64,000 bases of DNA from Planctomyces sp. (GTDB lineage Bacteria > Planctomycetota > Planctomycetia > Planctomycetales > Planctomycetaceae). The stretch is from the NCBI GenBank assembly GCA_016795105.1, contig JAEUIH010000004.1, positions 124,001 through 188,000 of the forward strand. The letters are read 5' to 3'. The position numbers and the translations under genes were made by a program. The notes under the pieces were generated by a model, which saw only the letters and a list, made by a program, of their open reading frames with translations, had not been told where the DNA came from and searched no databases. Below, piece by piece: positions 7,101-40,751 of this stretch. The first letter of the stretch is position 1. Every line of letters begins with the position of its first letter.

Positions 7101-7130
7101 TTGAGATTGCCTGGAAAACGCCATTAGAAT
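7101..7130 (+). promoter_or_regulatory. Putative sigma-70-like promoter for liv operon
   Basis: TTGAGA at 7101-7106 and TAGAAT at 7125-7130 are separated by 18 nt, about 50 nt before the livK start. The rest of the 285-nt gap after the permease gene shows no credible gene. Consensus match only, with no experimental support. Confidence 0.4.
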
Positions 7131-7178
7131 CGTCGATTGGCACTCTTCATAAAAAACTCTTGGGAAAAGTAGCCCCCT

Positions 7179-8354
7179 ATGACGCACTTCCGTTTTCAGG
7201 GACCACGCCGGATAATTGCCGTGATGGTCGCAGCGGCGATGTCCCTTGCGATGACAGGCTGTCAGGAAAGTGGTTCAACCGCATCAGATGAAATTCTGAT
7301 CGGCCATTTTGCATCACTTACAGGATCTGAAGCGACCTTCGGGCAATCCACCGACAACGGGATCAAACTGGCAGTCGATGAGATCAACGAAGCTGGCGGT
7401 ATTCACGGAAAGAAAGTCCGCCTGGTGACGCTGGACGACAAAGGTGATGCTCGGGAAGCCGGGACTGCCGTCACACGACTCGTGACGAAAGACGGTGTTG
7501 TGGCGGTATTGGGCGAGGTGGCATCGAAGCTTTCTCTGGCAGGTGCTCCCATCTGTCAGGAAAACGGGGTGCCCATGATTTCACCATCGTCAACAAATCC
7601 GAAAGTCACGAAAGTGGGTGACATGATTTTCCGGGTTTGTTTTATCGATCCGTTTCAGGGGGCCGTCTGTGCCAGGTTTGCTCGAGAGAGTGACCGGATC
7701 AAGGCTACCAAGGCAGCGATCCTGACAGACCAGGCATCTCCCTACTCAGTAGGATTGCAGGAAGAGTTTGAAAAAGCGTTCACTGCGATGGGGGGCACGA
7801 TTGTCAGCAAGCAGACCTATAATGCTGGTGACCAGGACTTCTCAGCGCAGTTGACAGCCATTCGAGGTGCGGATCCGGAAGTTGTGTTTGTGCCCGGCTA
7901 TTACACGGATGTCGGCAACATAGCGATTCAGGCGCGAACACTGGGATTGACAAAGCCACTGCTTGGCGGAGACGGCTGGGACTCAGTGAAGCTCGGCGAA
8001 ATTGCCGGAGCGAACATTAACGGCTGTTTCTATTCGAACCACTATTCGCATGAAGATCCGAATCCCAAAGTTCAGGACTTCATTCGCAAATATGCTGAAC
8101 GTCACAAGCAGACTCCGGACGGCCTTGCTGCCCTTGGTTACGACGCCGCACGAATCCTGTTTGAAGCGATGCAGCGAACCCCAAACGTGGATGGCAAGTC
8201 GCTTGCCGCGGAGCTTTCAAAGACAAGTGGATTTGAAGGCGTCACCGGGAAGATCTCCATCGACGCAGAGCGAAATGCTGTGAAGTCTGCCGTGATTCTG
8301 GAAATGAAAGACGGCAATCCAACCTATGTTTCAACAATTCAGCCGGGCGAGTAA
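7179..8354 (+). CDS. livK: Branched-chain amino-acid ABC transporter, substrate-binding lipoprotein
   Basis: A 391-residue periplasmic binding protein of the Leu/Ile/Val (HAAT) family, presenting amide or branched-chain amino-acid substrates to the LivHM channel. An N-terminal signal sequence ends in a lipobox, LAMTGC, with Cys28 as the probable lipidated residue. The mature part begins with ILIGHFASLTGSEATFGQ, the type I periplasmic-binding fold entry, followed by the NEAGGIHGKKV and SPSSTNP segments typical of LivK. It is the first of five consecutive genes, and a promoter-like pair lies just upstream. The true ligand (branched-chain amino acid, amide or urea) cannot be decided from sequence. 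Confidence 0.93.
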   Translation: MTHFRFQGPRRIIAVMVAAAMSLAMTGCQESGSTASDEILIGHFASLTGSEATFGQSTDNGIKLAVDEINEAGGIHGKKVRLVTLDDKGDAREAGTAVTRLVTKDGVVAVLGEVASKLSLAGAPICQENGVPMISPSSTNPKVTKVGDMIFRVCFIDPFQGAVCARFARESDRIKATKAAILTDQASPYSVGLQEEFEKAFTAMGGTIVSKQTYNAGDQDFSAQLTAIRGADPEVVFVPGYYTDVGNIAIQARTLGLTKPLLGGDGWDSVKLGEIAGANINGCFYSNHYSHEDPNPKVQDFIRKYAERHKQTPDGLAALGYDAARILFEAMQRTPNVDGKSLAAELSKTSGFEGVTGKISIDAERNAVKSAVILEMKDGNPTYVSTIQPGE

Positions 8355-8419
8355 CGTCTGATCTGATTCGGACTGCTCCGGAAAGTTAGACAGTCCCGAT
8401 ATCGGGTCGACATTCAATC

Positions 8420-9388
8420 ATGTCAGACTTTACTCAAACATTGATCACTGCGATCGCCATTGGCAGTCTCTACGCGCTCATTGCACTCGGTTACACGATG
8501 GTCTATGGGATCCTGAAGTTTATCAACTTCGCCCATAGCGACATTGTTGTTCTGGGTGCATGGTCGAGCTACACGTTTTCCAACTGGCTTCTGAAGCTGA
8601 TTGGTGTTGAAACGAAAGGAATGACCACCCCGCCCGCAATCTGGGTGGCCGTGGTCGTTCTGGTTCTCTCGATGGCTTTTTGCGGAGTTGTTGGGTTCAC
8701 GATTGAGCGACTGGCTTACAGGCCTCTTCGTCGGGCGCCTCGTCTGAACGTATTAATTACCGCCATTGGAGTTTCTCTGCTGCTTCAGAATGTCGGGCAG
8801 CTGGATCAGGTTTTTGGGGCAAGTCCTCAGAAGATGCCGCAACTGCTGCCGGCAGCGGAACTCGCTTCGTTTACCTTCGGAGAAGGTGAATCTGCTCGAA
8901 AAGTCGTCATCGGACTGGTTGACGTGATGATTTTCGTCACAGCCAGCAGCCTGATGTTGTTGATGCAGTACCTTGTCTTCCATACGAAGCAGGGGGTCGC
9001 GATGCGAGCCGTGTCATACAACACTGACACCGCTGCCTTGATGGGGATTCCGGTCGATCGAGTTGTTTCAATTACATTTGTCCTTGGGTCGGTTCTTGCC
9101 GCCGCCGCTGGTTTTCTGTACGTAATGAAGTATCCGTCGCTGAACCAGCCCGCTCATACCATCTGGGTATTGCTCGGATTGAAAGCATTTGTTGCGGCGG
9201 TGATTGGAGGGATCGGGAATGTTCGCGGTGCAGTTTTGGGTGGATTTGTGATCGCATTCGTCGAACAGTTTGGCGCGTTTTATATCTCCACGAACTATCG
9301 CGACGTCTATGTGTTTGTGATGTTGATCCTGATCCTGCTTGTTCGCCCCGGTGGTTTGCTTGGCGTTACGACGCGGGAGAAGGTGTAG
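8420..9388 (+). CDS. livH: Branched-chain amino-acid ABC transporter permease LivH
   Basis: The first membrane channel subunit of the importer (322 residues, about eight helices). It opens with the conserved ITAIAIGSLYALIALGYTMVYG and INFAHSD segments, and has the MRAVSYNTDTAALMGIP coupling region near residues 195-215 and the GGIGNVRGAVLGG loop near 265-280. These identify it as LivH rather than LivM. Only two bases separate it from the following livM gene, so co-translation is likely. An insertion with LPAAELASFTFGEGESARK (about 145-165) sits in an extracytoplasmic loop, as is common in LivH. Confidence 0.93.
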   Translation: MSDFTQTLITAIAIGSLYALIALGYTMVYGILKFINFAHSDIVVLGAWSSYTFSNWLLKLIGVETKGMTTPPAIWVAVVVLVLSMAFCGVVGFTIERLAYRPLRRAPRLNVLITAIGVSLLLQNVGQLDQVFGASPQKMPQLLPAAELASFTFGEGESARKVVIGLVDVMIFVTASSLMLLMQYLVFHTKQGVAMRAVSYNTDTAALMGIPVDRVVSITFVLGSVLAAAAGFLYVMKYPSLNQPAHTIWVLLGLKAFVAAVIGGIGNVRGAVLGGFVIAFVEQFGAFYISTNYRDVYVFVMLILILLVRPGGLLGVTTREKV

Positions 9389-27071: not shown

Positions 27072-27173
27072 AAACCAGGTCTCAACAGTTTAACGGCAAG
27101 CCACAGGCGACGAGGGTCTCCTGTGGAAAGCTTTCGAACGCGATCGGCATTCGGTTTTGATACGGGGGCACGA

Positions 27174-29837
27174 ATGAAGTCTCGAAGAAGAATCACCCGA
27201 TTGAGCCAGAGTGTTGAATCGTGTGAGTCACGTTTGTTGCTCTCCGGCAATCCAGTACTGGTCTCAAATATCAGAACCGGTGGAGCGGATTCCATGCCCG
27301 GTTCCCTTGTCAATGTTGGGGGAACTTTGTTTTTCGCTGCGAATGATGGTACGACAGGTCGAGAACTGTGGAAATCGGACGGCACTGTTTCAGGGACAGT
27401 TAGAGTACGCGATATACGAACCGGCTCGACCAGCTCAAATCCGGATAGTCTGCTCAACGTAAACGGGGTGCTTTACTTCACAGCGGACGACGGAACATCC
27501 GGGGTTGAGTTGTGGAAGAGCGACGGAACGTCGGAGGGCACCGTTCGGGTACTGGATATCGAATCCGGAGGATCAGGTTCAAACCCAGTCTATCTGACGA
27601 ACGTTGCTGGAACACTGTTTTTTGTTGCAGAGACCAGTTCTGCCGGCCGGGAGCTTTGGAAGAGTAATGGGACCGCCGCTGGTACGGCTCTTGTACGAGA
27701 TTTGGTGGCGGGTAGTGGTAGTTCCGGACCAGTTCGACTGACTGAAATGTCAGGGCAACTGTATTTCGCGGCCTGGACGCCTGCAACGGGTGAGGAGTTG
27801 TGGAAGTCCGATGGAACACTGGCGGGTACGCAAATCGTACGAGATGCGATTGTCGGCTCTGAGGGAATTAATCCTCGAGACCTGACAAATGTCAGCGGCA
27901 CTTTGTTTTTCTCCGCCTTTCATCCTGAAGCTGGATACGAACTGTGGAAAAGTAATGGAACAGCCGGTGGCACCATTTTGGTGAAAGACATATATCCCGG
28001 AACATACTCAGACTACGGAAACCTGTACTCATATAATTCGAACCCTTCATACTTGACGAACGTGAACGGAACACTGTACTTCACGGCGGTGTCGGCCGTT
28101 AAGGACGATCAAGTCTGGAAAAGTGATGGTACGGCAGCCGGTACGGAGATCGTAAAAGAAATAGATAGCTCCGCTCCATACACGGGTCCAGGTCAGTTAC
28201 AAAATGTCGCGGGTGAGCTGTACTTTCTGTTCAGTCCGGGTGTCGGCGGCAATGACATCTATCGCTCGAACGGTACATCTGCCGGCACTCTACTCGTTGC
28301 CGATGGCAGCAACTTCACGTCGAATGGCGAATTCACGGTGCTGAAATCGATCGGAACACAGATTTACTTTAACGCATCGGATTCATCGGGTGGTCAGGAA
28401 CTCTGGAAGACGGATGGCACACCGGCAGGCACGAGTCGCGTGGCCGATTTGCGTCCTGGCAGCGTCGGCTCAATTCCATCAGAGTTGACCAATGTCAACG
28501 GGACCTTGTTTTTCCGAGCGAACGATGGAGTTTCAGGAATGGAACTCTGGAAAATCAGCCAATTGGTCCCGCCAACAACCGTACCCACCGTCAACGGACC
28601 GGTGCCGGTTGTCGCACAGCAGCGTCCGACGATTACCTGGACAGCCGTTGAAACGGCAGATCGTTATGAAGTCTGGATCAAGAACCAGAGCACAAACACG
28701 AATCCGTTCCGCGTCGTCACAGTTCAGACAAATCAGTATCTGCCGGACGTAGACTTTGGGATCGGCCGATTCAATGTCTGGGTTCGTGCGGGTAATGAGA
28801 GTGGTTGGGGACCATGGTCGAGTCAGTACAATTTTCAGATCAATACGCAGGTGACAGCGATCGACCCCGGACGGTATCTGTCGACACACCTTCCGACACT
28901 CTCATGGGAAACGCTGCCCGGAGCAGTTCGATACGACCTCTGGGTCAACAACAAATCTGCCGGCGTCAGTCAGGTGATTCGGAACTCGAATGTTTCAGGA
29001 ACCTCATTTGTTCCGGGTAGTGAATTGCCTCTGGGACTGTATGAAGCGTGGGTCAGGGGGATTGATGCAAGTGGTGTTCCCGGGCAATGGTCTCGAACAA
29101 CTACATTTCATGTCATGCCTCCACCGACGATCACTGAGGGACTGAATCCGACGTTTGATCGAACACCCACGTTTTCCTGGCAAAGTCTGAATGGTGCTTC
29201 GAAGTACGAGGTCTTCGTCCGGAACCAGATCACAGGAACGACTGCGGTCTATGCTCAGAACATCGCGGCTCTTTCCTACACGTTTCCAACGGACCTCGCC
29301 TCTGGACCTTATCGCTGGTGGTTGTTGGGAGTCTCCGCTCAGAATATTCGCAGTTTCTGGACGAGTCCGGCAGACATTTTTGTCGGAGGCCGAACGGATC
29401 TGCTGACTCCCACAGGTTCGACCACCGACACGACTCCAACGTTCACATGGAGACCCGTTGATGGCGCAGAGCGTTATGACTTGTGGGTAGATCAGGTTGG
29501 AGGCACGACTCAGATCATCCGCCAGCAGAACATTGTGTCAGCTGAATATACTGCTGCGGTATCACTTCCCGCCGGCAACTACCGCGTCTGGGTCCGCGCC
29601 ATCAGTGTCTTTGGCGAGATTGGGCCGTGGAGTCTGACCTGGAATTTTTCGATTAGTCATCTGGACAACAACGTTCTTCCGCACCTTTTCGAAGATGAGG
29701 TTCCTGAGTTCGTTGAGAAATCTACTCAGCTTATTGTTATTGAGGAATCAGAAACTGAGGGGAGCATCTCCGAACGCATTTGGCCATGGGTGACGACGTT
29801 TCAGCCTGTAGAAGAAAGTTGGCCGACTCCGCTTTAG
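27174..29837 (+). CDS. ELWxxDGT-repeat surface protein with fibronectin-like modules
   Basis: An 887-residue exported protein. The N-terminus has basic residues and ESCESRLLLSG, a variant of the planctomycete LEPRxLLSG-type export motif. Residues about 25-460 hold eight repeats containing ELWKSDGTxxGT or close variants, plus a ninth degenerate copy (GMELWK). The spacing is 48-60 residues, which suggests a beta-propeller. Residues about 475-830 hold four beta-sandwich modules with PTITW or PTFSW strands and YEVWI, YDLWV or YEVFV strands, resembling fibronectin type III. The acidic C-terminal tail has no visible anchor. Adhesion or surface-layer use is inferred. The stop overlaps that of the converging RraB-like gene. 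Confidence 0.85.
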   Translation: MKSRRRITRLSQSVESCESRLLLSGNPVLVSNIRTGGADSMPGSLVNVGGTLFFAANDGTTGRELWKSDGTVSGTVRVRDIRTGSTSSNPDSLLNVNGVLYFTADDGTSGVELWKSDGTSEGTVRVLDIESGGSGSNPVYLTNVAGTLFFVAETSSAGRELWKSNGTAAGTALVRDLVAGSGSSGPVRLTEMSGQLYFAAWTPATGEELWKSDGTLAGTQIVRDAIVGSEGINPRDLTNVSGTLFFSAFHPEAGYELWKSNGTAGGTILVKDIYPGTYSDYGNLYSYNSNPSYLTNVNGTLYFTAVSAVKDDQVWKSDGTAAGTEIVKEIDSSAPYTGPGQLQNVAGELYFLFSPGVGGNDIYRSNGTSAGTLLVADGSNFTSNGEFTVLKSIGTQIYFNASDSSGGQELWKTDGTPAGTSRVADLRPGSVGSIPSELTNVNGTLFFRANDGVSGMELWKISQLVPPTTVPTVNGPVPVVAQQRPTITWTAVETADRYEVWIKNQSTNTNPFRVVTVQTNQYLPDVDFGIGRFNVWVRAGNESGWGPWSSQYNFQINTQVTAIDPGRYLSTHLPTLSWETLPGAVRYDLWVNNKSAGVSQVIRNSNVSGTSFVPGSELPLGLYEAWVRGIDASGVPGQWSRTTTFHVMPPPTITEGLNPTFDRTPTFSWQSLNGASKYEVFVRNQITGTTAVYAQNIAALSYTFPTDLASGPYRWWLLGVSAQNIRSFWTSPADIFVGGRTDLLTPTGSTTDTTPTFTWRPVDGAERYDLWVDQVGGTTQIIRQQNIVSAEYTAAVSLPAGNYRVWVRAISVFGEIGPWSLTWNFSISHLDNNVLPHLFEDEVPEFVEKSTQLIVIEESETEGSISERIWPWVTTFQPVEESWPTPL

Positions 29838-30253
29838 TCTTCACCGGCGATATTGTCATCCATGACGTTTGCTTCCCAGCCGTCGTATTCACCATTGCAG
29901 CGAGAAGCGATATTGGAAAATGTCGTGGTGATCTGTTTGATCTTTGCTTCATCAAGAGCCATCTCGCGGGTGACGGAGAGGGACCATTGAGGTTTTGCAA
30001 AGAGTCGTTTCCACCACGGAGGGTTGATGCAGAACTTCTCCGATGCGATCTGCTCTTGGGCCAGCATTCCTGCCGCTCGGTCGGCGTCTGACTCCGAAGG
30101 AAAGACGAAGTAGAAATTGAGTTCGCGTATTCTGTCGAAATCGACTCCGAAATTGCGAAGGACATTTAAGAGCACATCATCTTCGTCATGGGAATGCACG
30201 ATGAACTCTCTTTCCAGCTGGAGATTACCCATTCCGCAATTACCAAGGCTCAC
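29834..30253 (-). CDS. RraB-family ribonuclease-E-inhibitor-like protein
   Basis: A 139-residue cytoplasmic protein. The core has LNFYFVFPSESDADRAAGML, WSLSVTREMALDEAKIKQIT and a closing acidic YDGWEANV. This order fits the RraB fold, in which Escherichia coli RraB binds RNase E and lowers its activity. Whether a suitable RNase E exists in this organism cannot be seen here. GTG 30253 gives 139 residues, and ATG 30232 (MGNLQLE) is a possible start. The family assignment comes from pattern memory and is moderately certain. Confidence 0.65.
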   Translation of the reverse strand: MSLGNCGMGNLQLEREFIVHSHDEDDVLLNVLRNFGVDFDRIRELNFYFVFPSESDADRAAGMLAQEQIASEKFCINPPWWKRLFAKPQWSLSVTREMALDEAKIKQITTTFSNIASRCNGEYDGWEANVMDDNIAGED

Positions 30254-30324
30254 GTTGAGTGTGCCAATGCGCTGAACTGCATCAACCTAACATGCGGCAA
30301 GCTATGAAACCGTTTCGTTCCGGC

Positions 30325-31035
30325 CTACTGAACTCGGTCAGAGTGGTTCTGTTTGGGGATTCGCAGGGACATACCGACTTGAAGGTGGTCGGGGCCTTTC
30401 ATGCGGTCTTTGTTTGCTTCATAGATCTGGCGATATTTGGCCTGAGAGCCCAGAAACTTTTCCGCGATTTGAGAAAGCGTATCTCCATACCGAACCACGT
30501 ATTCTTCAAACTCCGTTTCAGCAGGAAACGAATCAGGCGGTGACACTGGCGGTTCTGTGCCAGTTGGTTCTGTGCCAGTTGGTTCTGTGCCAGTTGGTTC
30601 TGTGGTTGTGGGAATCGTGACGGCGGGTTTCTGCGATGACTCGGGAAACAGCGGAGGGAAGTCAGAGTCAGCAACAGAGCGGAAGTCCTCGGGAGCGTGA
30701 AATCCATCTTCCGTTTTGGCTTGATCTGATGTCACGACTGGTTCTCCCTGCATACCGACGGGCAGGGGAACACCGGCGTTACGAGCGTCGAGATCCTTCA
30801 GAAGTTCCGGGAGAGTCCAGCGGGGTTCGGCGGTTGTGCCTGACGACGAATCGCGTGCGCCATCCTCGAGATAGACCGCGACGTCACGGTCGCGAAGGTG
30901 TTCGTTGAGTTCTTTCTCACGGCGCACCCTCGGCACATCGTCCACTGTCAGAGGCTCGTTTCGGAAAAACAGAGCACCAACAATGCCGATCAGCAGAATA
31001 CCCATCGCAAACCCAATTTTTCGATCAGGATGCAT
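30325..31035 (-). CDS. LysM-domain membrane protein
   Basis: A 236-residue protein with a single N-terminal membrane helix (about 7-24, GFAMGILLIGIVGALFF), a long polar linker, and a C-terminal LysM domain (about 182-230) with YVVRYGDTLSQIAEKFLG, YEANKDRM and LQVGMSLRIP. LysM binds N-acetylglucosamine polymers, so it probably touches peptidoglycan. The linker has a PTGTE repeat before the LysM domain, encoded by 15-bp DNA repeats whose copy number may vary. It is divergent from the structured 31.1-31.6 kb region. Confidence 0.85.
   Translation of the reverse strand: MHPDRKIGFAMGILLIGIVGALFFRNEPLTVDDVPRVRREKELNEHLRDRDVAVYLEDGARDSSSGTTAEPRWTLPELLKDLDARNAGVPLPVGMQGEPVVTSDQAKTEDGFHAPEDFRSVADSDFPPLFPESSQKPAVTIPTTTEPTGTEPTGTEPTGTEPPVSPPDSFPAETEFEEYVVRYGDTLSQIAEKFLGSQAKYRQIYEANKDRMKGPDHLQVGMSLRIPKQNHSDRVQ
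30551..30604 (-). repeat. 15-bp tandem repeat inside LysM gene
   Basis: Three full copies (30551, 30566, 30581) and a 9-nt partial copy, identical in sequence. They encode the Pro-Thr-Gly-Thr-Glu linker. Length variation by slippage would stay in frame. Confidence 0.9.
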
Positions 31036-31235
31036 CGAGGGGCCCTTGGGTAATCAGAAGGTACCGGCAGAAATTGCCGAACAACGTCACATCGTCGTCA
31101 TCGACCAAAGTTGTCGAACATTTGAGGCTGTTTTTGAATGCTGTTCGGAATTCGGAATTCAACCCATTGATTGATCCGGTTATGGAGGTTGCGGAGGATC
31201 GACCGATTTTGCATTAATCGGCAGGAAGCGCGGAC

Positions 31236-31590
31236 ATGAAATCGTATGTGCCGCAGACTGCTGAAGATGGCAAGACCGATTCATGGGTGGCGCAAAAATT
31301 CAACCCGGAGGTAAAAGACAGAGTCAACGTGTCGTTCGCGACAGGACGAAGAGACCCGCATCACCAGCGTTTGACAGAAGTTTGTTGTCAATCGCATGTG
31401 AAGTCAGAATGGTTGACTTTCGAATTCTCTGATCTGAATCGGTCACAGCCGTCCACACACCGGCTGAGAGGAAATCGCGAGGGGACGCATCACCAACAAC
31501 CTTTTCTGGCAGTCCGGCGATTGAGTCGGGCTACCCGTTCAATCGGGCTATAAAAAGGGAAGCAGCTCTCACCGGCCGCTTCCTTTTTTC
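31236..31590 (+). ncRNA. Candidate small RNA ending at intrinsic terminator
   Basis: A rho-independent terminator with no recognised gene in front of it implies a plus-strand transcript. Immediately upstream is a stem (31518-31524 with 31539-31545) holding an inner CGGG/CCCG stem. The 5' end is a guess. No tmRNA, RNase P or SRP motif was found. A 105-residue open frame ending at 31553 is the alternative explanation. Confidence 0.3.
31552..31590 (+). terminator. Rho-independent terminator
   Basis: A GGAAGC/GCTTCC stem (31558-31563 with 31578-31583) is extended by an A run pairing with T residues (31552-31556 with 31585-31589), followed by the T tract. The A/T symmetry could let it work in both directions. 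Confidence 0.75.
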
Positions 31591-31739
31591 ATGCGCCGCC
31601 TTTTGTAGGGCACTTAATTTACTGAGCTGAATTAGTTCCGGGGAGAACCTGGCAGAAGGCCGGAATTCTCTCGACACCCGAACCCTGTCTGTGTGTTTTG
31701 AGGGTTGGACGTGGAAGGAACTTAACGAAGGACTCAGTG

Positions 31740-31946
31740 ATGACAATTTTCAACATGATTGAACAGCCGGTGTTTGCGTACCTGGACCCGGGTGCTGGAA
31801 GTATGCTGCTTCAGGCCCTGATCGGGGGAGGCGCTGGATTATATGTTTTTCTGAAACATTTTCTGAAAATGTTTCGAGCGGGTGCCTTCAGACCTGCACG
31901 CAGGCAGACAGCTTGTGTCACTGGGAAACATGCGGAAGGTACTTAG
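31740..31946 (+). CDS. YLDPG-motif small membrane protein
   Basis: A 68-residue protein with the sequence AYLDPGAGSMLLQ leading into one hydrophobic helix (about 18-42) and a basic tail. This motif marks a widespread family of tiny membrane proteins of unknown function that I associate with envelope glycan or sulfatase loci. ATG 31740 follows AAGGA at about 8-nt spacing. A longer frame from 31698 lacks such a signal. Three bases separate it from the methyltransferase start, and the sulfatase follows, so a three-gene unit is likely. Confidence 0.75.
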   Translation: MTIFNMIEQPVFAYLDPGAGSMLLQALIGGGAGLYVFLKHFLKMFRAGAFRPARRQTACVTGKHAEGT

Positions 31947-31949
31947 GCC

Positions 31950-33389
31950 GTGTCTTCAGTCATTGATGATGTGCAGGTGGTGGACGGTTCATTCCGCGAT
32001 CGTTGCGGTCGTGTGTTTTTGCACGGTGACCGAGTCTTCCGATCACTGACTGATGAGGGGCTTTCAGACTGGCGTCAGATTTCCCGGACACGGTTTTTCA
32101 GGGAAGGCAGCGAAAGCGGACAGATTGTTCGAACCTGGGAAAGTCATCCAGCTGCACTTCCTGCAGATCTATCGGATGCCGTTCTGGTTCTGGAGCATGA
32201 ACGGATTCCGGCGGTGACGTGGCCCTGGGAGTGGTCATTTTCGATGTTGAAAGATGCGGCGCTTTCGCATCTTGAGCTGATGCTCGCTGCTTTGTCGGAG
32301 GACTGTATTCTCAAGGACGCAACACCATTGAATTGGCAGTTCAGCGGTGGACGGTGGGTTTTGATGGATACGGGATCGGTAGTACCGCATACGTCCGGAC
32401 ACACGTGGGAAGGCTATCGTCAGTTTTGTGAGACGTTTCTGTTTCCACTGATGCTTCAGGCATGGAAGGAAGTCCACTTTCAGCCGTGGCTGCGTGGCAG
32501 GATCAGCGGAATACCGGTTGATCAGTTTGCGAGGATGCTCTCCTTCCGTGACATGTTTCGCAGAGGTGCAATGATCCATGTCTGGCTGCATTCAAAACTG
32601 CAGACGAAGCGACTGTCATCCAGTGCGGTATCCGACAGTGTTCGGGAAGGCGGGTTTGATCGAAGTATGATCGTTCGCAATGTGGAGTCATTGCAGGGTG
32701 TTGTTCAGGGACTGCACTGGCGGGAATCAGAATCTGAATGGTCAGACTATGATCAGTCTTCCGAGCCGGTTCAGAGAGACTCTGCGGAAAAAGAAGCATT
32801 CGTTGAATGTGTATGCAGCAGTCGACGTTGGACGACAATCTGGGATCTTGGATGTAATCTTGGCCGGTATTCAGAGATCGCAGCTCGTTTTTCAGACCTT
32901 GTCCTGGCATTTGACTCTGACCACCTGACGATTGATCAGATGTATCGGAAGATCCGCCGAAAGGAAATTCGTAACATCATTCCGCTGGTGATGGATTTGA
33001 CTGATCCGAGTCCATCACTTGGCTGGCGGCATCGGGAGCGACTGAACTTGGAGCAGCGGTCAACTCCGGAATTGATCCTGTGCCTTGCACTCATTCATCA
33101 TCTTGTGATCAGCGGTCAACTGTTACTGCACGATGTGATGGATTGGCTCGCATCTTTTCATGCTGAAGTCGTCTTCGAATACGTCGATCGCCAGGATGCT
33201 CAGACAAAAGTACTCCTGCAGAATCGCCGCGATGTGTTTATAGATTACAGTCGCGAGAATTTTCTTGCTGCAGTACAGGCACGGTTCGAGATCGTCGACG
33301 AGTATAGTCTGCCATGTGGCACGCGAACATTGTATCACCTTCGACCGCATACGCGGAGGTTTGAGTCAATTGAGACCAATGGTGTGTGA
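31950..33389 (+). CDS. NoeA-like SAM-dependent methyltransferase
   Basis: A 479-residue cytoplasmic protein. The N-terminal part (about 20-230) has LKDATPLNWQF, WVLMDTGSV and WEGYRQFCETFLFPLML, an arrangement recalling the catalytic and metal-binding loops of kinase-like folds seen in this methyltransferase family. The C-terminal part (about 285-470) is a class I methyltransferase with WDLGCNLGRYSEIAA as motif I, LAFDSDH following, and LALIHHLVI and YSLPCGTRTLYHL later. NoeA relatives modify nodulation factors or envelope glycans. The acceptor here is unknown. GTG start with GGAAGG 10 nt upstream. Sits between the YLDPG and sulfatase genes. Confidence 0.78.
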   Translation: MSSVIDDVQVVDGSFRDRCGRVFLHGDRVFRSLTDEGLSDWRQISRTRFFREGSESGQIVRTWESHPAALPADLSDAVLVLEHERIPAVTWPWEWSFSMLKDAALSHLELMLAALSEDCILKDATPLNWQFSGGRWVLMDTGSVVPHTSGHTWEGYRQFCETFLFPLMLQAWKEVHFQPWLRGRISGIPVDQFARMLSFRDMFRRGAMIHVWLHSKLQTKRLSSSAVSDSVREGGFDRSMIVRNVESLQGVVQGLHWRESESEWSDYDQSSEPVQRDSAEKEAFVECVCSSRRWTTIWDLGCNLGRYSEIAARFSDLVLAFDSDHLTIDQMYRKIRRKEIRNIIPLVMDLTDPSPSLGWRHRERLNLEQRSTPELILCLALIHHLVISGQLLLHDVMDWLASFHAEVVFEYVDRQDAQTKVLLQNRRDVFIDYSRENFLAAVQARFEIVDEYSLPCGTRTLYHLRPHTRRFESIETNGV

Positions 33390-33415
33390 GCGGATTCTGA
33401 AACTGGAAGGTTGTC

Positions 33416-35587
33416 ATGAAGAGTCGCGACTCTGCTACACTCAATGGTACTGTGCCGCAAAATTTTCTGTACCTGACCACTTTGAACGCATTTGCCGTTC
33501 TGCAGCCGGCTCTTGATCAAATGGCGAAGAACCCTGGCTTCCTGAGGCTGGAAGGGTTCAGCGCTGGTGCGATCATCTGTTCCGTCCTGATTTTCATGCT
33601 GGCAGTCCCCGCATTTTTTACGGCGATTGCATACGCGGCCGTCCGGCTGAAGATGCATCGGACGGCCCTGGGAGTATTTCGGGGGACTTCGGCAGTCTTA
33701 TGCTGTCTGATAATGCTCTACTTCTTCCGCTGGATGTCGGCGACCTTTCATTTGCTGTCTGCTGGAGTTCCTGACTTCGCACTGGCCCCGATGGCGCTGA
33801 TTGCCGGAGGATTCGCGACTTACGCTTTAACTCGATCCAATGCAGTTCGCCAGATCGTGAAGATCGCAGCTGTGGGTGTCATACTGTTTCCGGTCAGCTT
33901 TCTCATGACACCTGCGATTCAGGAACTGGTTTTGGGGATCGAGCAGCGGGAATATCATCGGGCTACGAATGTGGCGAATCCGGTACCTGTCGTCATGATT
34001 GTGTTTGATGGGATGTGTGGAATGTCGCTGCTTGACATGCAGCATGAGGTTGACCAGCAGCGTTTTCCATCGTTTGCTCGGCTTGCAGAAATGAGTACTC
34101 ATTTTCGCAATGCGACAACCGTGCACACGAGAACTGACCATGCATTGCCTGCAATGCTCTCCAGCTGCTTTCCGGAGGAAATCCAGGAGCCCGTTGAGTC
34201 AGACTATCCGGCGAATCTGTTTCGGCTGATTTACAACAGCAATCAGTATGCAATGACCGTGTTTGAGCCTGTCACGCAGATGGCACCGGACGAGTTGAGG
34301 CAGATTGAGCAGGAATTGTCCGGAAGGGAGCAGGTGCTCCGGCTGACTGGTACTCTGACACGAGTGCTGGCGAGAATGTGGATGCCCCGCGATCTCGAGG
34401 TTGCTGAAGTCTCCATACCATCAGCGTGGTTTGGTCTGCCGGATGTGAAGGGGACTGAGAAGACTCGCATGCGTGGCAAGGTCGTCTACAGCTGGGATAC
34501 GGATCGGGGAGAACAGTTCAGACATTTCATTTCAACGATCAAACCATCGGATCAGCCTGCGTTTCGTTTCTTTCATGTGGCGCTGCCTCATTATCCCTGG
34601 ACACTGTTTCCATCAGGGAAGTCCTATAGTCGTGTGTGTTCGCTTTCGGAGCCCATTTATGGGCTTCGGTTCGAAGAATGGAGTTCTGATGAGTGGCCAG
34701 TAAATCTTGCATGGCAGAGGAATCTGATGCAGATGCAAATGGCAGATCGCTGTCTTGGCGAGTTACTGGATACGCTTGAAGAAAACGGAGAGCTGAGGGA
34801 CTGCTTGCTGATAGTGACAGCAGATCACGGAATGGCATTCTCCGCCGGCCGCGAAATGCGGACACCGGAAGAATCAACACTCGGTGATATCATTTCAGTG
34901 CCGCTGTTTCTGAAGCTACCATCGCAGAATACCGGAGTAGTGACAGATCGGAACGTGGAGATTGTGGATATCCTGCCGACAATTGCAGAGGTTCTTGGGC
35001 TGGCTCCCGATGAGTCCTGGGAAGGAGTATCGCTGTTGTCAGCTGGTCCGGAGCGTCCTCGAAAGACAGTTCGTGGGGCCGTAGACACAGTGCTTTCACC
35101 CGAGTTTCCGGAGCGTTTTGACCATGTGGAACGACTCCATCGAGTATTTGGCAGTGGGGGATCGAATGACCAGCTTGGGCAGTTGAGCGTACTGCCGGAG
35201 TTGACTGGGCGATCAATTCGTGAATTCTTACAGACGGGTGTCTCAGCTTATGAAAGTGTTCTGAGGTCCTCTCCCGTTCGATTACCAGCCGATCGTCCGG
35301 AGTTCATACCGGGATTGATCGAGGGGCGCATATCAGAGAACCCGCAGACGACATCGCCCGTTATGATCGCTGTCGCCATTGATGATGTCATTGTGACTGT
35401 GACTCGTACCAGTACCGATCCACACTGGGAGGGTCAATGGTCCGCTCTGCTGCCCGACGGAACGTTTGCTCAGGACCCTGCAAGTCTCAAACTGTACGTG
35501 ATCACAGCGGTCGGAAATGAAGCGTCCGGAAGTACATATCAACTCTCCGAGCTTTCGTGGAGAGTTGGTGAAGGCGGTGCATCGTAG
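33416..35587 (+). CDS. Membrane-anchored sulfatase/AlkP-superfamily protein
   Basis: A 723-residue protein with five or so membrane helices in the first 190 residues, then an extracytoplasmic AlkP/sulfatase-type domain. Metal-site elements are VVMIVFDGMCG (about 195-205), a nucleophile region RTDHALPAML where Thr would replace the sulfatase Cys/Ser, FHVALPHYPW, and VTADHGMAF near 465. The Thr and the helix-plus-domain layout are like phosphoethanolamine or lipoteichoic-acid transferases rather than classic sulfatases, so it may transfer a phospho-group to a glycan. It converges with the helicase gene across 17 nt. Together with the two genes before it, it suggests glycan decoration. Confidence 0.8.
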   Translation: MKSRDSATLNGTVPQNFLYLTTLNAFAVLQPALDQMAKNPGFLRLEGFSAGAIICSVLIFMLAVPAFFTAIAYAAVRLKMHRTALGVFRGTSAVLCCLIMLYFFRWMSATFHLLSAGVPDFALAPMALIAGGFATYALTRSNAVRQIVKIAAVGVILFPVSFLMTPAIQELVLGIEQREYHRATNVANPVPVVMIVFDGMCGMSLLDMQHEVDQQRFPSFARLAEMSTHFRNATTVHTRTDHALPAMLSSCFPEEIQEPVESDYPANLFRLIYNSNQYAMTVFEPVTQMAPDELRQIEQELSGREQVLRLTGTLTRVLARMWMPRDLEVAEVSIPSAWFGLPDVKGTEKTRMRGKVVYSWDTDRGEQFRHFISTIKPSDQPAFRFFHVALPHYPWTLFPSGKSYSRVCSLSEPIYGLRFEEWSSDEWPVNLAWQRNLMQMQMADRCLGELLDTLEENGELRDCLLIVTADHGMAFSAGREMRTPEESTLGDIISVPLFLKLPSQNTGVVTDRNVEIVDILPTIAEVLGLAPDESWEGVSLLSAGPERPRKTVRGAVDTVLSPEFPERFDHVERLHRVFGSGGSNDQLGQLSVLPELTGRSIREFLQTGVSAYESVLRSSPVRLPADRPEFIPGLIEGRISENPQTTSPVMIAVAIDDVIVTVTRTSTDPHWEGQWSALLPDGTFAQDPASLKLYVITAVGNEASGSTYQLSELSWRVGEGGAS

Positions 35588-35604
35588 AGTGGCAGCGTCC
35601 TGAA

Positions 35605-36807
35605 TCAGCCGAATTTCTTAATATCACGGGCTTCACGATTGCGAGGTGCAAACGCTTCGAAGTCCTCGACGAGGTATTCAGGGAGTACGGTGTTGATTCG
35701 TTTTTCAATATTTGTCAGTTCACCACCTTGAGCAAGTGTGACAAAGGTGATGGCTCGACCCTGGCGAGACGACGACATTCTTCCGGTTCGTCCCACGCGA
35801 TGTACGTAGTCATCGCAGAATTCCGGAATGTCGTAGTTAATGATATGAGAAATCCCGCTGATATCGATTCCTCGGCCGACGACATCCGTTGCGATGAGCA
35901 GCCGCAACTGTCCGGAGCGGAGTTCCCTGATGACTTTGTCACGCTGGCGCTGAGGCAGGTCACCGTGGATGGCCGCAATACGATTCGACTTCAGGCGTTT
36001 GGAATACATCTGAAACAGAGCGTCAGCACCACGTTTAGTGCGAGTGAACACGATGACTTGCGAGGGCTTTTCTTTGGCAAGAATTCTGAGCAGCAGCGAG
36101 CGTTTTCGGTCTTCATCGACAGTGACATAAAACTGTTCGATAGTGTCAACAACAACGCGGTCTTCAGACAGGTCCACCATTTCGGGCGAGACCATATAGC
36201 GATGAGCCAGTTTTTCGACCGGAGGCGCCATGGTGGCAGACAGCAGCAGAGTCTGACGGTCCTCAGGGCAGGCTTTTAGGATTTTTTCGATGTCTGGTCG
36301 GAAACCGATATCGAGCATGCGGTCGGCTTCGTCGAGAACTGCGATTTGAAGGGCATCGAGCTTAAGTTCGCGTCGTTTGAGCAGGTCAATGACTCGCCCT
36401 GGAGTCCCGATGACGACCTGAACGCCTTTGCGAAGAGCTTCGATCTGTCGATGGATGGGGCGACCGCCCACGGCAAGACCGAACTCGAAGCCGGAGTTTC
36501 CGGCGAACTTCATAGACTCAGAATAGACCTGTTCACTGAGTTCGCGGGTGGGGACGAGCACAATCATCTGGACTCGTTTTCGACTTGGATCCAGTTGCTC
36601 CAGAGACGGAAGCATGAAAGCCGCGGTTTTGCCGGTCCCGGTTCGAGCCTGTCCAATGCAGTCTTTTCCGGTCAGAGCGACCGGGATAAAGGCGGCCTGA
36701 ATCGGGCTTGGCATCTTGTAGCCGATTTGAGCCAGGCGATTGAGTGTTGCGGGACTGAGACCAAGTTGAGCGAACGATTTTTCTGTGACGACGTCCAATT
36801 TCTGCAC
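35605..36807 (-). CDS. DEAD-box RNA helicase
   Basis: A 400-residue ATP-dependent RNA helicase. The Q motif (Phe12, then GYKMPSPIQ) precedes motif I ARTGTGKT (54-61). Then PTRELSEQV, GTPGR, the DEAD box in VLDEADRML, SATM, IVFTRTKRG, ATDVVGRGIDI and YVHRVGRTGR follow in canonical order. The C-terminal extension is short, ending soon after motif VI, so it is a minimal RhlE/SrmB-like enzyme. A role in ribosome assembly or RNA decay is typical of the family. Confidence 0.93.
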   Translation of the reverse strand: MQKLDVVTEKSFAQLGLSPATLNRLAQIGYKMPSPIQAAFIPVALTGKDCIGQARTGTGKTAAFMLPSLEQLDPSRKRVQMIVLVPTRELSEQVYSESMKFAGNSGFEFGLAVGGRPIHRQIEALRKGVQVVIGTPGRVIDLLKRRELKLDALQIAVLDEADRMLDIGFRPDIEKILKACPEDRQTLLLSATMAPPVEKLAHRYMVSPEMVDLSEDRVVVDTIEQFYVTVDEDRKRSLLLRILAKEKPSQVIVFTRTKRGADALFQMYSKRLKSNRIAAIHGDLPQRQRDKVIRELRSGQLRLLIATDVVGRGIDISGISHIINYDIPEFCDDYVHRVGRTGRMSSSRQGRAITFVTLAQGGELTNIEKRINTVLPEYLVEDFEAFAPRNREARDIKKFG

Positions 36808-37384
36808 TTTCGGTAGAAATGTTTCAGGATGACTGCTGAGTGACCCGCAGAAAAATCAGCGAGGAAATCCTGAACGTCACAGGAATCCTGAGAGGGCAAC
36901 AGCCCGTGCTGATCAATGCCTCAAACTGGAGCAAACAGCAGTCTGAAGCGAAATCTACGTGCGGTGCCAAGCCAACACCCTGCTCTCAATCGGAGACAGG
37001 TGTCCACCAGCATTGGGTAACGATGAACTGCTTACGGTGATTGACTGTTGACCGAGTCACGTTGTAAACGTGCACCACAGTCCCCTGCAAAACAGCAACT
37101 TCGGTAAGTGCAGTGAGCTAGTGAGGACAGAGAATCCCTTGAATCGGGAGATCTCTACAAGTTCAGATTGGTTGAGGATCGCTTAGCAATTACTCAATGG
37201 AGGACTTTAGCGCACGAAACTGTTGCCGTCAACAAGGGATCGAGCGGAGACTGGAATTCGCCGGAAACTCGTCCGTCGGGACCGGAAATATGGAAGTTGG
37301 CGGGTAGAATCGGAGGACTGTCGCCGAATGTGATCGCGCGATAGGGAGAGTTGCAAAACGAATTGTTGGGACAGGGACCTGCGG
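36808..37384. other. 577-nt gap before the radical SAM gene
   Basis: No credible gene is seen. A TTGACT (37041-37046) and TGTAAA (37063-37068) pair with 16-nt spacing could be a promoter. It overlaps a CACGTT-GTA-AACGTG inverted repeat at 37058-37072 that could be an operator. These would place a leader of about 300 nt before the long 37.4-58.4 kb gene run. Confidence 0.3.
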
Positions 37385-38686
37385 ATGTACACGCTTCGGA
37401 TGGCAAAACGCATGCTGTTTGAGACCAACAAACGGCTGCTTTGGAAGTTGATCTGGAACCTGGGAGTGAAGGGTTCGCGATCCGTATTTCTGCACAAGCG
37501 GAGAATGAAGAAGGGGCAGTACTTTCCGCCGTTTCTTTATGTGTCAATCATCAACAGCTGCAACCTGCGGTGTCAGGGATGCTGGGTGGACGTCGCCCAC
37601 AAGCAGCAGACGATTGATCTGAAGGCGATGAACAAGCTGATTGGGGAGGCTCGGCAGGTTGGCAACAGTTTCTTTGGGATCGTGGGGGGTGAGCCTTTCA
37701 TGCATCCGGAGCTGTTCGATATTTTTGCCGCCCATCCGGACTGTTATTTTCAGGTATTCACCAATGGCCAGTTCATTACCGACGAGAAGGCTCGTCGCAT
37801 GTTTGAGCTTGGCAATGTAACACCGCTCATCAGCGTTGAGGGGAACGAGATCATCAGCGACCAGCGTCGTGGACGGCTGGATGTTTACAGTAAGACGCTC
37901 GCAGGAATCGACGCATGTCTGCGAAACAAAGTGATGACGGGTGTCTGTACCAGTCTTGCGAAATCCAATATTGATCACTTACTGACAGAAGCATGGGTAG
38001 ACCGGCTGATCGAAATGGGTGTGCTCTATACCTGGTTCCACGTTTATCGTCCGATGGGACCGGATGCCAATCCGGAGCTTTGCCTGACACCTGAGCAGCA
38101 ACGGCGGGCTCGGCAGTTTGTTGTTGAGATGCGAGCAAAGAAGCCGATCATCATTATTGATGCTTACTACGATGGTGACGGAAAGGCATTGTGTCCGGCG
38201 GCTAACGGAATCAGCCACCATATCAATCCGTGGGGCGACATCGAGCCATGTCCGATTGTTCAGTTCTCAAAGGAGTCGATTCATTCCGGCAAGGACGAAC
38301 GGACACTGTTTGAGAAGTTCACTCAGTCTGAATATCTGGCCGACTTCCGCAAGCTCTCTCAGGAAACGACTCGGGGATGCATCGTCCTTGAGAGACCGGA
38401 CCTGCTGGCAAAGCTTGTGGAAAAGCACGAAGCGAAGGACTCCACTGCTCGCGCGACTGCAATGCAGGAACTGCGTTCGATGACAAGCCGAACGTCTCAA
38501 TATCATCCGGGGTATGAGATCCCTGAGAAGAATATTTATTACCGCATTGCGAAGAAGTTGCTGTTCAATGACTTCGGTGTCTACGAAGGTCATGACCACA
38601 GCCGGACTTCGGCCTATGGGCAGGAGCGTGTTCAGCAGGAGTCTGTTTCGCAGGAGCCTGTTCAGCCTGAACCCGCTCAGAGGTAG
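37385..38686 (+). CDS. Radical SAM protein
   Basis: A 433-residue radical SAM enzyme. The 4Fe-4S site is C59-x3-C63-x2-C66 within NSCNLRCQGCW. GIVGGEPFMHPE is the glycine-rich SAM contact, and FTNGQFIT, PLISVEGNE and the later CPAANGISHHINPWGDIEPCPIVQF follow. Those later cysteines, together with Cys in RGCIVLERP, may bind a second cluster as in SPASM-like enzymes. An N-terminal basic amphipathic stretch (1-45) could lie on the membrane. The last 30 residues are a Gln/Glu/Pro/Val repeat encoded by imperfect DNA repeats. GGGA precedes the ATG by 7 nt. It heads the large envelope gene run. Substrate unknown. Confidence 0.85.
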   Translation: MYTLRMAKRMLFETNKRLLWKLIWNLGVKGSRSVFLHKRRMKKGQYFPPFLYVSIINSCNLRCQGCWVDVAHKQQTIDLKAMNKLIGEARQVGNSFFGIVGGEPFMHPELFDIFAAHPDCYFQVFTNGQFITDEKARRMFELGNVTPLISVEGNEIISDQRRGRLDVYSKTLAGIDACLRNKVMTGVCTSLAKSNIDHLLTEAWVDRLIEMGVLYTWFHVYRPMGPDANPELCLTPEQQRRARQFVVEMRAKKPIIIIDAYYDGDGKALCPAANGISHHINPWGDIEPCPIVQFSKESIHSGKDERTLFEKFTQSEYLADFRKLSQETTRGCIVLERPDLLAKLVEKHEAKDSTARATAMQELRSMTSRTSQYHPGYEIPEKNIYYRIAKKLLFNDFGVYEGHDHSRTSAYGQERVQQESVSQEPVQPEPAQR

Positions 38687-38704
38687 TTCGATCTGTTTCA
38701 GACA

Positions 38705-39763
38705 GTGACGGATACTGAGGTGCTGAGCGAGGGTGTGGAACTCATGAGCAGTGATGAGCCCGCAGAACAGAGGATCCTGTACGACCTCGATTCCGTTTAC
38801 CTCGGCAATCAGCAGAATTCTCGACTGAAATCCGTCACCTTGACGATTCGATCCGGAGTGACGGCCGTTGTCGGGATGTCGGGGGCCGGGAAAACGTCTC
38901 TTTTGAATCTGCTGTCTGGATTTGAGCATCCGGACAGTGGTACGATTCGGCGGGGCGGCGAGTTCAACCGTGCAGGTGGCGGGCGATTGCCGATGTTCTG
39001 GGTCCCATCGGGTGGGGGGCTATGGCCCCACATGACGGCAGGCGAGCACTTGATCAACGTGCATCCTGACCGCGAATTTGCAGTCCGGGCTGGATTTGCA
39101 GACAAAATTCTGAAAGCCTTTGATCTAACCCACCGGACCGGAGCGTATCCTGCAGAATTGTCTCAGGGGGAGCGTTCTCGCCTGTCGCTGGCCAGAGCGA
39201 TTGTGACTGGTGCGGAGATTCTGATACTCGATGAACCACTGTCTCATGTTGATACGATTCGTCAGCCAAAGTACTGGCAGATCCTTCGTGAAGCGGTGGA
39301 GGAGCAGGGTGTCAGTATGATTTTTTCGTCGCACGAACCCGAAACAATCCTGAGGGAATCATCACACGTGATTTGCCTTGACTCCGGACAGGTCGTCTGG
39401 TTTGGGTCTACCGGAGCTTTGTACCACCAGCCATCGAGTCGGGAGGCTGCCATGTTTCTTGGCCCGGTGAACTGGGTGGGCGGGGACCAGGAGAAGGACT
39501 CACTGCCGGCAGCCTGGATTCAGGGAAGTGACTTGGAGAGAGTCACGGGCCTTCGTCCGGAGTCTATTGAGGCGGAGGGGGATGAACGTTCCGCCTTGAA
39601 AGTGGTTGTTTCCGTACATCGAGGCTGGATGTCAGAAACTCAGGTTGTTGACACATTGGTCGGGCGTACGGGCGTCATTCTCCATTTGACGACAGGAGAA
39701 CACCTGAGGTCAGGGCAGGGAGTTCGATTTGTGGTTCGGTCCTCGACGAAACGAGGGTGCTAA
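38705..39763 (+). CDS. Stand-alone ABC transporter ATPase
   Basis: A 352-residue ABC ATPase of the sugar/iron importer type. Walker A GMSGAGKTSLL lies near 57-67, a signature variant LSQGERSR near 155, Walker B ILILDEP near 175 and the SSHEPE histidine near 207. A C-terminal part (about 250-350) resembles a TOBE-like regulatory domain. No permease gene adjoins it, since the neighbours are a radical SAM gene and an NHL lipoprotein, so its membrane partner lies elsewhere or it has a non-transport role. GTG 38705 gives the longest frame. ATG 38744 (MSSDEP) is an alternative. Confidence 0.85.
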   Translation: MTDTEVLSEGVELMSSDEPAEQRILYDLDSVYLGNQQNSRLKSVTLTIRSGVTAVVGMSGAGKTSLLNLLSGFEHPDSGTIRRGGEFNRAGGGRLPMFWVPSGGGLWPHMTAGEHLINVHPDREFAVRAGFADKILKAFDLTHRTGAYPAELSQGERSRLSLARAIVTGAEILILDEPLSHVDTIRQPKYWQILREAVEEQGVSMIFSSHEPETILRESSHVICLDSGQVVWFGSTGALYHQPSSREAAMFLGPVNWVGGDQEKDSLPAAWIQGSDLERVTGLRPESIEAEGDERSALKVVVSVHRGWMSETQVVDTLVGRTGVILHLTTGEHLRSGQGVRFVVRSSTKRGC

Positions 39764-39764
39764 A

Positions 39765-40751
39765 TTGCGTTTGCATTCGGGCTGGAATGAAGATTCACCT
39801 CGCAGTGGTTCTGTGAATACCTGCCGACTCAGGTTTCGTTTCGTATGCTGGCTGATGATGTTGGCTGGTGTGTTGGGTATGGCTGGTTGCGGGGCATCAT
39901 CTGAAAGCACGATGACGATGAGTCGTTTTGATGTCTGGAAGGTGCCGGCGGCGGGGCGTCAATTGCCTGCTCCACGGTCTTTATATTCGGATGCGGAAGA
40001 TAATGTCTACTGTCTGGACGATGCCGGACGCGTGCTGGTGTATACACCGGACGGGCAGATCCGAGCCCAGTGGTTCATGCCGGCCTGGGACATCGGACGT
40101 CCGGAGGGGATTTGGAAGCTGCTGGACGGTCGGATTGCCGTCGCGGATACTCATTACCACCGCATCGTGATTTTCTCTGCCGACCTGGATGGCAAAGTGA
40201 GTCATATGTTTGGGACGAAGGGGGCAGAAGCCGGACAATTTGTTTTTCCGGTTGCAGTGACTCAGGATCCCCAGGGATTTCTCTACGTCGGCGAATATGG
40301 AGACAAACAACGCATTCAGAAATTCACCGTTGACGGAACCTTCGTCGCCGAATTTGGAGAACATGGGACTGGCGACGGTCAGTTTCAGAGTCCTCGCAAG
40401 GTGTTATGGAAAGACAAGACAGTATATATCGTGGACGCCTTCAATAATCGGTTACAGGTATTTTCGGAGGACGGGGAATTTCTGCGAGTTCTGGGATTGC
40501 CGGAGGGCGCCGACCCGCTGAAGTTTCCGTACGACATCAAAATTGACGACAGTGGTCGATTATTTGTGATTGAAAACAAAGCCGGACGACTCACGATTTT
40601 GAATCCGGATGGTACCATTCAGGGGAGATTTGGCCGCCCCAGTCGGGGGCTTGAAGGATTCTTCAATCCCTGGGCAGTCGCGGTTCTGAAAGATGGACGG
40701 ATTCTTGTAGCGGACACCGGAAATCACCGACTTGTGGAACTGACTCCATGA
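39765..40751 (+). CDS. NHL-repeat lipoprotein
   Basis: An exported six-bladed NHL-type propeller of about 328 residues. The signal sequence ends in LGMAGC, so the protein is probably lipidated. Blades contain YCLDDAGRVLVYTPDG, IAVADTHYHRIVIFS, LYVGEYGDKQRIQKF, VYIVDAFNNRLQVFS, LFVIENKAGRLTILN and ILVADTGNHRLVEL. The start is uncertain. TTG 39765 has GAGGGTG 5 nt upstream and abuts the previous stop, GTG 39813 would give the most compact signal peptide, and an open frame begins at 39729. The TGA overlaps the next start in ATGA. Probably an extracytoplasmic binding or sensing scaffold for the VWA protein. Confidence 0.8.
   Translation: MRLHSGWNEDSPRSGSVNTCRLRFRFVCWLMMLAGVLGMAGCGASSESTMTMSRFDVWKVPAAGRQLPAPRSLYSDAEDNVYCLDDAGRVLVYTPDGQIRAQWFMPAWDIGRPEGIWKLLDGRIAVADTHYHRIVIFSADLDGKVSHMFGTKGAEAGQFVFPVAVTQDPQGFLYVGEYGDKQRIQKFTVDGTFVAEFGEHGTGDGQFQSPRKVLWKDKTVYIVDAFNNRLQVFSEDGEFLRVLGLPEGADPLKFPYDIKIDDSGRLFVIENKAGRLTILNPDGTIQGRFGRPSRGLEGFFNPWAVAVLKDGRILVADTGNHRLVELTP

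Follow-up and report, generated by a model that had tools for sequence, protein, structure and literature searches.

A compact operon for a YLDPG small protein, a NoeA-like kinase-methyltransferase and a Thr-type membrane AlkP protein in Planctomyces sp., with a possible role in envelope modification

A 64,000-nucleotide stretch of the 8.9-Mb Planctomyces sp. genome (label G000; assembly GCA_016795105.1, contig JAEUIH010000004.1, positions 124,001 to 188,000 of the forward strand), hereafter the window, carries at 31740-35587 a compact operon of three plus-strand open reading frames (ORFs) with intergenic gaps of 3 and 26 bp (Table 1). These encode a small membrane protein with a YLDPG motif, a NoeA-like kinase-methyltransferase, and a NoeB-like membrane protein of the AlkP superfamily. 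The three genes recur together across bacterial phyla, and their products conserve catalytic residues, including a Thr at the AlkP nucleophile position. With a probability of roughly one half, the operon specifies a three-part envelope-modification machine, in which NoeA would act inside the cell, the AlkP protein outside, and the YLDPG protein as the membrane partner of both; the cassette probably decorates a sugar or lipid of the cell surface with a small phosphate group.

Co-occurrence of the three genes

A NoeA profile scan of genome contigs returned at least 587 relatives, of which the best 80 were kept; these come from Planctomycetota, Acidobacteriota, Actinomycetota, Pseudomonadota, Chloroflexota, and other groups, with a bias to window-like sequences and to Micromonospora (14). 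In 79/80 of these loci, NoeA has a YLDPG gene within 2.5 kb, and in 69/80 it has an AlkP relative within 3 kb, as detected with profiles that were seeded with window, plasmid, and relative sequences, iterated over the same loci, and hence tuned to them. At the sole locus lacking YLDPG (L055), a contig end leaves 81 bp ahead of the NoeA gene. Placement is exceptional at L054 (downstream, opposite strand), L087 (downstream), and L081 (about 1.7 kb upstream), and at an E-value of 1e-3 no YLDPG match occurs elsewhere in the 80 loci, apart from a second copy in L081. That locus (844-7877) has two small-protein and four AlkP copies adjoining a single NoeA relative. Among the 11 loci without AlkP, L059, L065, L095, and L098 are bounded on one side by less than 1.1 kb of sequence, and in L034 two weak AlkP fragments occur. 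To control for AlkP density, midpoints were counted in whole flanking windows: 64 of 132 contain one at 0-3 kb from NoeA versus 5 of 107 at 4-7 kb. Rough clustering of flanking ORFs in the 80 loci gave a largest cluster (59 loci) represented by an antisense frame over NoeA/AlkP, followed by a real-looking glycosyltransferase cluster, named by eye, in 17 loci; no fourth family of comparable reach was found among the clusters listed from this analysis, with which antisense frames interfere.

Among 59 relative genomes, NoeA occurs in 14, YLDPG in 13, and both in 12 (Fisher p 1e-9, a test that, here and below, treats genomes as independent, which related genomes are not). NoeA stands without YLDPG in G017 (a partial match) and G021 (26% identity), and YLDPG without NoeA in G048, a match that was dropped (E 0.006, two stops). 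In 294 genomes of the window's phylum, Planctomycetota, requested at 90% completeness, both genes are present in 19, NoeA only in three, YLDPG only in two, and neither in 270, an agreement of 289/294 (Fisher p 9e-25). All 19 genomes with both have NoeA and YLDPG adjacent on one contig; contig G011:C365 is cut by its end inside NoeA. The NoeA-only genomes (G021, G081, G269) hold the three weakest NoeA matches and the YLDPG-only genomes (G164, G221) the two weakest YLDPG matches, that of G221 proving to be a YLDPG-AlkP pair without NoeA.

The association also holds when approached from the small protein. Samples of 348 Pseudomonadota, 277 Bacteroidota, 276 Actinomycetota, and 237 Acidobacteriota genomes gave YLDPG matches in 8, 7, 31, and 46 genomes, respectively. 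Of 90 loci examined on this side, 88 were confirmed, with places in G336, G338, G345, G340, G334, and G342 left out. NoeA lies within 2.5 kb in 76 of the 88 and AlkP within 3 kb in 58; 84 loci have one or both, and four have neither. Copies with no NoeA or AlkP match alongside are those of G133:C50 and G011:C487 and the weak acidobacterial L298, L299, L301, and L302, and the YLDPG of G029:C119 adjoins a Cys-type sulfatase, which is perhaps unrelated. Weak YLDPG matches in G164 (L163, E 0.005), G343:C45 (L212), L259, and L303 were dropped, the last two not being confirmed. The earlier note on this DNA had proposed the three adjacent genes as one unit that should co-occur beyond this locus, and the counts, across phyla, strongly support it.

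Eight of the 88 loci pair YLDPG with AlkP in the absence of NoeA, and such pairs also occur at L211, L213, L216, and L217. In G099:C57 (Planctomycetota), YLDPG is followed by a phosphoenolpyruvate (PEP) mutase-cytidylyltransferase fusion (PEP_mutase 8e-55, CTP_transf_like 2e-13), a thiamine pyrophosphate (TPP) enzyme, and an Fe-alcohol dehydrogenase; an AlkP ORF stands at each end, and the locus also has an MBOAT gene. G1156:C12 (Actinomycetota) has the same three enzymes and a Glyphos_transf protein (1.2e-6), together with two YLDPG genes and four AlkP-profile ORFs, two of which exceed the Pfam Sulfatase cut-off. By the logic of known phosphonate pathways, both may be read as hydroxyethylphosphonate clusters. 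The YLDPG-AlkP pair of G221 (Planctomycetota) and that of G457 (Pseudomonadota) instead neighbor a Sulfotransfer_3 protein, so that the phosphonate and sulfotransferase versions rest on two loci and two phyla each. At the locus level, L251:4379-14341 (Actinomycetota), which holds two YLDPG genes, several AlkP ORFs, a PEP mutase-cytidylyltransferase, a TPP enzyme, an Fe-alcohol dehydrogenase, and a glycerophosphotransferase-like protein, is a candidate cluster for envelope phosphonates; L216:6324-17488 (Planctomycetota) is of similar make-up plus an MBOAT acyltransferase, and its protein at 7892-9064 has no Pfam match; and L209:244-2007 is a carbamoyltransferase (Carbam_trans N and C) near a YLDPG-AlkP-sulfotransferase group.

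The three proteins and their setting

The YLDPG protein matches no Pfam family at E ≤ 10, its NCBIfam matches are at chance level (0.085 and above), and the term YLDPG was not found in the open-licence literature searched. Y14 and D16 are invariant in an alignment of 50 members; the commonest motif forms are YLDPG (30/79) and then YLDAG (20/79). The motif is preceded by at most 12 residues in 48/79 proteins and by more in 31/79, and of these 31 longer proteins 26 carry an AxA-like site directly ahead of the Tyr. On average, the first eight residues of the motif have a net charge of −1.0 and residues 28-48 after the motif start one of +2.0, the stretch between being taken as a membrane helix. 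This suggests a topology in which the motif lies outside and the basic tail inside, with a single helix crossing the membrane.

The second protein, which in Pfam gives only a sub-threshold methyltransferase match, shares 32.0% identity with S. meliloti noeA over 94% of its length (5e-65), that is, full-length homology, in agreement with the NoeA-like methyltransferase of the earlier note. In tblastn it matched 65 plasmid records, 64 of them over at least 80% of the query and 57 of them from Sinorhizobium. The note also suggested that its N-terminal half recalls kinase folds. R31, D123, N128, and D140 are invariant in an alignment of 55 relatives; for the NoeA family, kinase residues D, N, and D with an Arg replacing the catalytic Lys have been reported and kinase roles proposed (PMC9758233). 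The product of gene 2 carries this residue set, and R31 is in our reading probably the Arg in question. Against PDB sequences up to E 10, the N-terminal profile found a single match, the catalytic loop of RIO3 kinase, at a weak E of 0.79. The kinase assignment is supported, but not shown by structure.

With the full NoeA profile searched against all PDB sequences, the top four matches are WbdD, with whole-sequence E-values of 3.4e-5 to 9e-4. These matches run through the S-adenosylmethionine (SAM) motif and the HH region; the kinase loop of WbdD can be aligned as well, but with a negative score. The predicted structure of the NoeA-like protein is confident (predicted local distance difference test, pLDDT, 92.9; predicted template modelling score, pTM, 0.92), makes the methyltransferase fold clear, and has no apparent membrane helix. 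Structure searches with the methyltransferase half place NodS (Z 17.7, root-mean-square deviation, rmsd, 2.7, 176 residues aligned) next to MePCE, the methylphosphate-capping enzyme (Z 17.6, rmsd 3.4, 193 aligned). A defense system was considered and rejected, PADLOC having yielded only a weak match of the methyltransferase half to mad2 (5.4e-4).

The third protein matches Pfam Sulfatase (1.8e-15), and its model (pLDDT 89.1) combines N-terminal helices (12-38, 50-77, 81-110, 120-140, 142-151, 154-163, 166-173) with an AlkP catalytic domain (about 186-570). The latter resembles sulfatases (Z up to 28.7), a phosphonate monoester hydrolase (27.4), the YejM periplasmic domain (26.7), LtaP (25.5), and LtaS (25.4); EptA is not among the matches listed. 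In 71 aligned AlkP proteins (the window protein, 67 of 69 locus AlkPs, and three from plasmids), Thr occupies position 240 in 68 and Ser in three; D198 and H392 are kept in 71/71, D470 in 70/71 (one gap), and H471 in 66/71 (Glu in four, one gap). Sixteen further AlkP ORFs, in which L214 and L215 repeat L057 and L094, have Thr in 14, Ser in one, and Cys in one, the last (L219) being a sulfatase without nearby NoeA and the only aligned protein with Cys at the nucleophile position. The sulfatase nucleophile motif is C/S-x-P-x-R; the window protein reads TDHALPAM, and an ordinary sulfatase is ruled out by the absence of the Cys/Ser motif. A Thr nucleophile is usual in LtaS/EptA-type membrane transferases, and the protein has the Thr and the Asp and Asp-His metal ligands of that type, with metal roles assigned by analogy. 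The Thr that had been singled out against the Cys or Ser of sulfatases does align with the AlkP nucleophile, but it is not an oddity. Homology to NoeB is weak in pairwise BLASTP (9e-5) and emerges when S. meliloti NoeB is compared by hhalign with a profile of 43 cassette AlkP proteins that does not include it (probability 97.5%, E 6.5e-12); as in the noeA operon, the AlkP gene follows NoeA. The protein also matches the phage family phrog_19870 (5.4e-15), so phage records hold a related AlkP gene.

Table 1. Coordinates of the operon and its features in the window
Feature	Position	Strand	Basis
YLDPG small membrane protein, 68 aa (gene 1; contains AYLDPGAGS)	31740..31946	+	ORF call
YLDPG motif Y14-G18 (inside gene 1)	31779-31793	+	
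NoeA-like kinase-methyltransferase, 479 aa, GTG start (gene 2)	31950..33389	+	noeA matches, at least 587 relatives, model
Putative kinase catalytic residues R31 (32040), D123 (32316), N128 (32331), D140 (32367)	32040..32369	+	alignment of 55
Methyltransferase half, residues 259-468, motif DLGCN, H383-H384 invariant	32724..33353	+	structure and PDB profile matches
Membrane AlkP-superfamily protein, NoeB-like, 723 aa (gene 3)	33416..35587	+	Pfam, model, hhalign
Helical, presumably membrane, N-terminal part of AlkP protein, residues 12-173	33449..33934	+	model helices
Thr240, AlkP nucleophile position	34133..34135	+	alignment of 71
Presumed AlkP metal set D198 (34007), H392 (34589), D470-H471 (34823-34828)		+	alignment; metal roles by analogy

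The operon looks limited to these three genes because the recognizable genes on both sides, a LysM-like one (30325-31035) and a DEAD-box helicase-like one (35605-36807), both named by eye, lie on the minus strand. A promoter scan gave three sites versus a mean of 3.1 in shuffles, and terminator-like sites number seven versus 4.1. About 1.9 kb upstream, a 904-aa ORF (27123-29837) contains repeated ELWKSDGT-type motifs, seen by eye.

Proposed mechanism and alternatives

In the proposed machine, NoeA would work in the cytoplasm: its kinase half would phosphorylate a sugar, probably one belonging to a lipid-linked glycan or glycolipid, and its methyltransferase half would place a methyl group on this phosphate or on a group near it, in the way that WbdD caps O-antigen with methylphosphate. 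The AlkP protein, with about five membrane helices and its metal site and Thr240 presumably outside, would act on the exported product via a covalent Thr-phospho step, the phospho-group being either moved to an envelope acceptor, which is favored here, or trimmed. The YLDPG protein, with its single membrane span, would expose the conserved YLDPGxGS end outside and the basic tail inside and may link the inner and outer steps or recruit the enzymes. As a putative role, envelope-glycan modification, which the earlier note had suggested, fits the relatives and some neighborhoods.

Several results weigh against this assignment. WbdD-type proteins run from methyltransferase through kinase to a coiled-coil ruler, and the window NoeA has the reverse order (kinase motifs at 123-140, methyltransferase at 259-468, end at 479) and no such ruler. 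The WbdD E-values sum two or three short stretches, none of which passes 0.001 singly (best 0.0022, 4azs), and Trm5b follows at 9.9e-4. Structural ranking of the methyltransferase is a tie among NodS, MePCE, and many other methyltransferases, and these fill the search, so that WbdD and kinases are not among the matches listed, which excludes nothing. Sulfatases outscore the membrane transferases in the AlkP structure search. AlkP is also not always nearby, as 26 of the 76 YLDPG loci with NoeA have none found within 3 kb (20 Acidobacteriota, two on contigs shorter than 4.5 kb), and no glycan gene was recognized by eye adjoining the window operon.

A doubtful alternative is that the AlkP protein is a hydrolase or a YejM-like non-catalytic sensor that removes or senses the group added by NoeA. 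Full-length PbgA/YejM can be superposed on model residues 1-569 (418 residues, but rmsd 12.3), and the best catalytic-domain scores belong to sulfatases, with the phosphonate monoester hydrolase also high. Set against this, the sulfatase Cys is absent, and nearly all 71 proteins retain Thr/Ser and the presumed metal ligands, which makes a dead enzyme unlikely but is compatible with hydrolysis. Instead of a structural envelope glycan, the target of the cassette could be a small signal or lipo-oligosaccharide that is secreted, in line with what has been supposed for NoeA/NoeB and Nod factors; we regard this as unlikely. It would suit the position of noeA and noeB in the nodL operon and the methyltransferase fold being nearest, by a hair and in a tie, to NodS, but NoeA relatives occur in many groups not expected to make Nod factors. 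In the 1995 work of Ardourel, noeA and noeB mutants reportedly showed no Nod-factor change, which counts against it as well. Nod-factor modification by noeA and noeB has been hypothesized (PMC9048898).

That the YLDPG protein is itself the substrate phosphorylated or methylated by NoeA is quite improbable. Their near-constant adjacency would be expected, but the YLDPGxGS end appears to be outside, the NoeA model has no apparent membrane helix, and YLDPG-AlkP pairs exist without NoeA. Chance neighborhood would have in its favor that planctomycetes are rich in sulfatase-like genes, but the counts refute it: the same trio stands in other phyla, and AlkP is concentrated next to NoeA and not in the distal flanks. 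Its probability is virtually nil.

The three-part envelope machine may itself be one form of something broader. Tentatively, YLDPG and a Thr-type membrane AlkP protein could constitute a general outer-face module that moves small acidic head groups onto envelope molecules and is fed by interchangeable cytoplasmic makers: NoeA, the PEP mutase-cytidylyltransferase set, or a sulfotransferase. NoeA would make a sugar-linked methylphosphate; the PEP mutase-cytidylyltransferase, TPP decarboxylase, and Fe-alcohol dehydrogenase, with a glycerophosphotransferase-like enzyme in one of two loci, would make 2-hydroxyethylphosphonate, which is shaped like methylphosphate. On such a view, the host-range genes noeA/noeB would be one branch, and a third gene, so far overlooked, would matter to it. 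The phosphonate versions suggest that phosphates and phosphonates share a step at the outer face; they also provide the YLDPG family with a role open to testing.

Comparison with known systems

The closest known arrangement is the host-range operon of the alfalfa symbiont Sinorhizobium meliloti, which on pSymA of ml47 has the order nodL, a 71-aa hypothetical ORF, noeA, noeB. The small ORF (AYLDPGTGSMLVQ) carries only the label hypothetical, has a 23-bp overlap with noeA, and matches the window YLDPG protein in BLASTP at 2e-9 with 15/20 identical residues, so that the order YLDPG, NoeA, AlkP is that of the window. A YLDPG-like ORF also adjoins a NoeA relative in four other plasmid loci (L017-L020). 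S. meliloti differs in that nodL precedes the trio and in its shorter (553 aa), distantly similar NoeB. No nod gene was recognized by eye at 28000-40000 of the window. Judging by its title as cited, a 1995 paper by Ardourel is said to find noeA and noeB needed for nodulation of particular Medicago species. A truncated noeA has been described in a strain failing on 17/27 M. truncatula genotypes (PMC4053727). The chemistry of noeA/noeB is still only supposed in the literature consulted, and should these genes form part of an envelope cassette that is widespread and has a small third partner, envelope glycans or lipids, rather than Nod factors, become the place to look for it.

The pathway is less novel than the earlier note assumed. 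NoeA as a kinase plus methyltransferase with NoeB as its AlkP-fold neighbor was published in 2022 (PMC9758233), in connection with the Lani_1194 kinase-methyltransferase family, whose neighbors Lani_1193 and Lani_1195 are conserved in 65% and 38% of 816 neighborhoods; that paper itself ties the family to NoeA and NoeB, and, as in the window operon, an AlkP-fold protein is encoded next to it. The main text of PMC9758233 gives no description of Lani_1193. The YLDPG family as an unnamed NoeA partner, including its presence in the noeA operon, is new here unless Lani_1193 is a YLDPG protein.

A second family in PMC9758233 was compared with WbdD, which adds a terminal methylphosphate to E. coli O9/K. 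pneumoniae O3 glycans (PMC11231755). Between NoeA and WbdD, the O-antigen kinase-methyltransferase of E. coli O9a, both halves align, with the kinase loop scoring as given above; the WbdD sequence match with reversed order is new here, as are the phosphonate and sulfotransferase versions. No O-antigen polymerase gene was recognized adjoining the window operon. The AlkP protein shares with LtaS, LtaP, EptA, and YejM a helical N-terminal part followed by an AlkP catalytic domain and the Thr nucleophile position, as in LtaS and EptA, and differs from them in its low sequence similarity and in about 150 extra beta-rich C-terminal residues.

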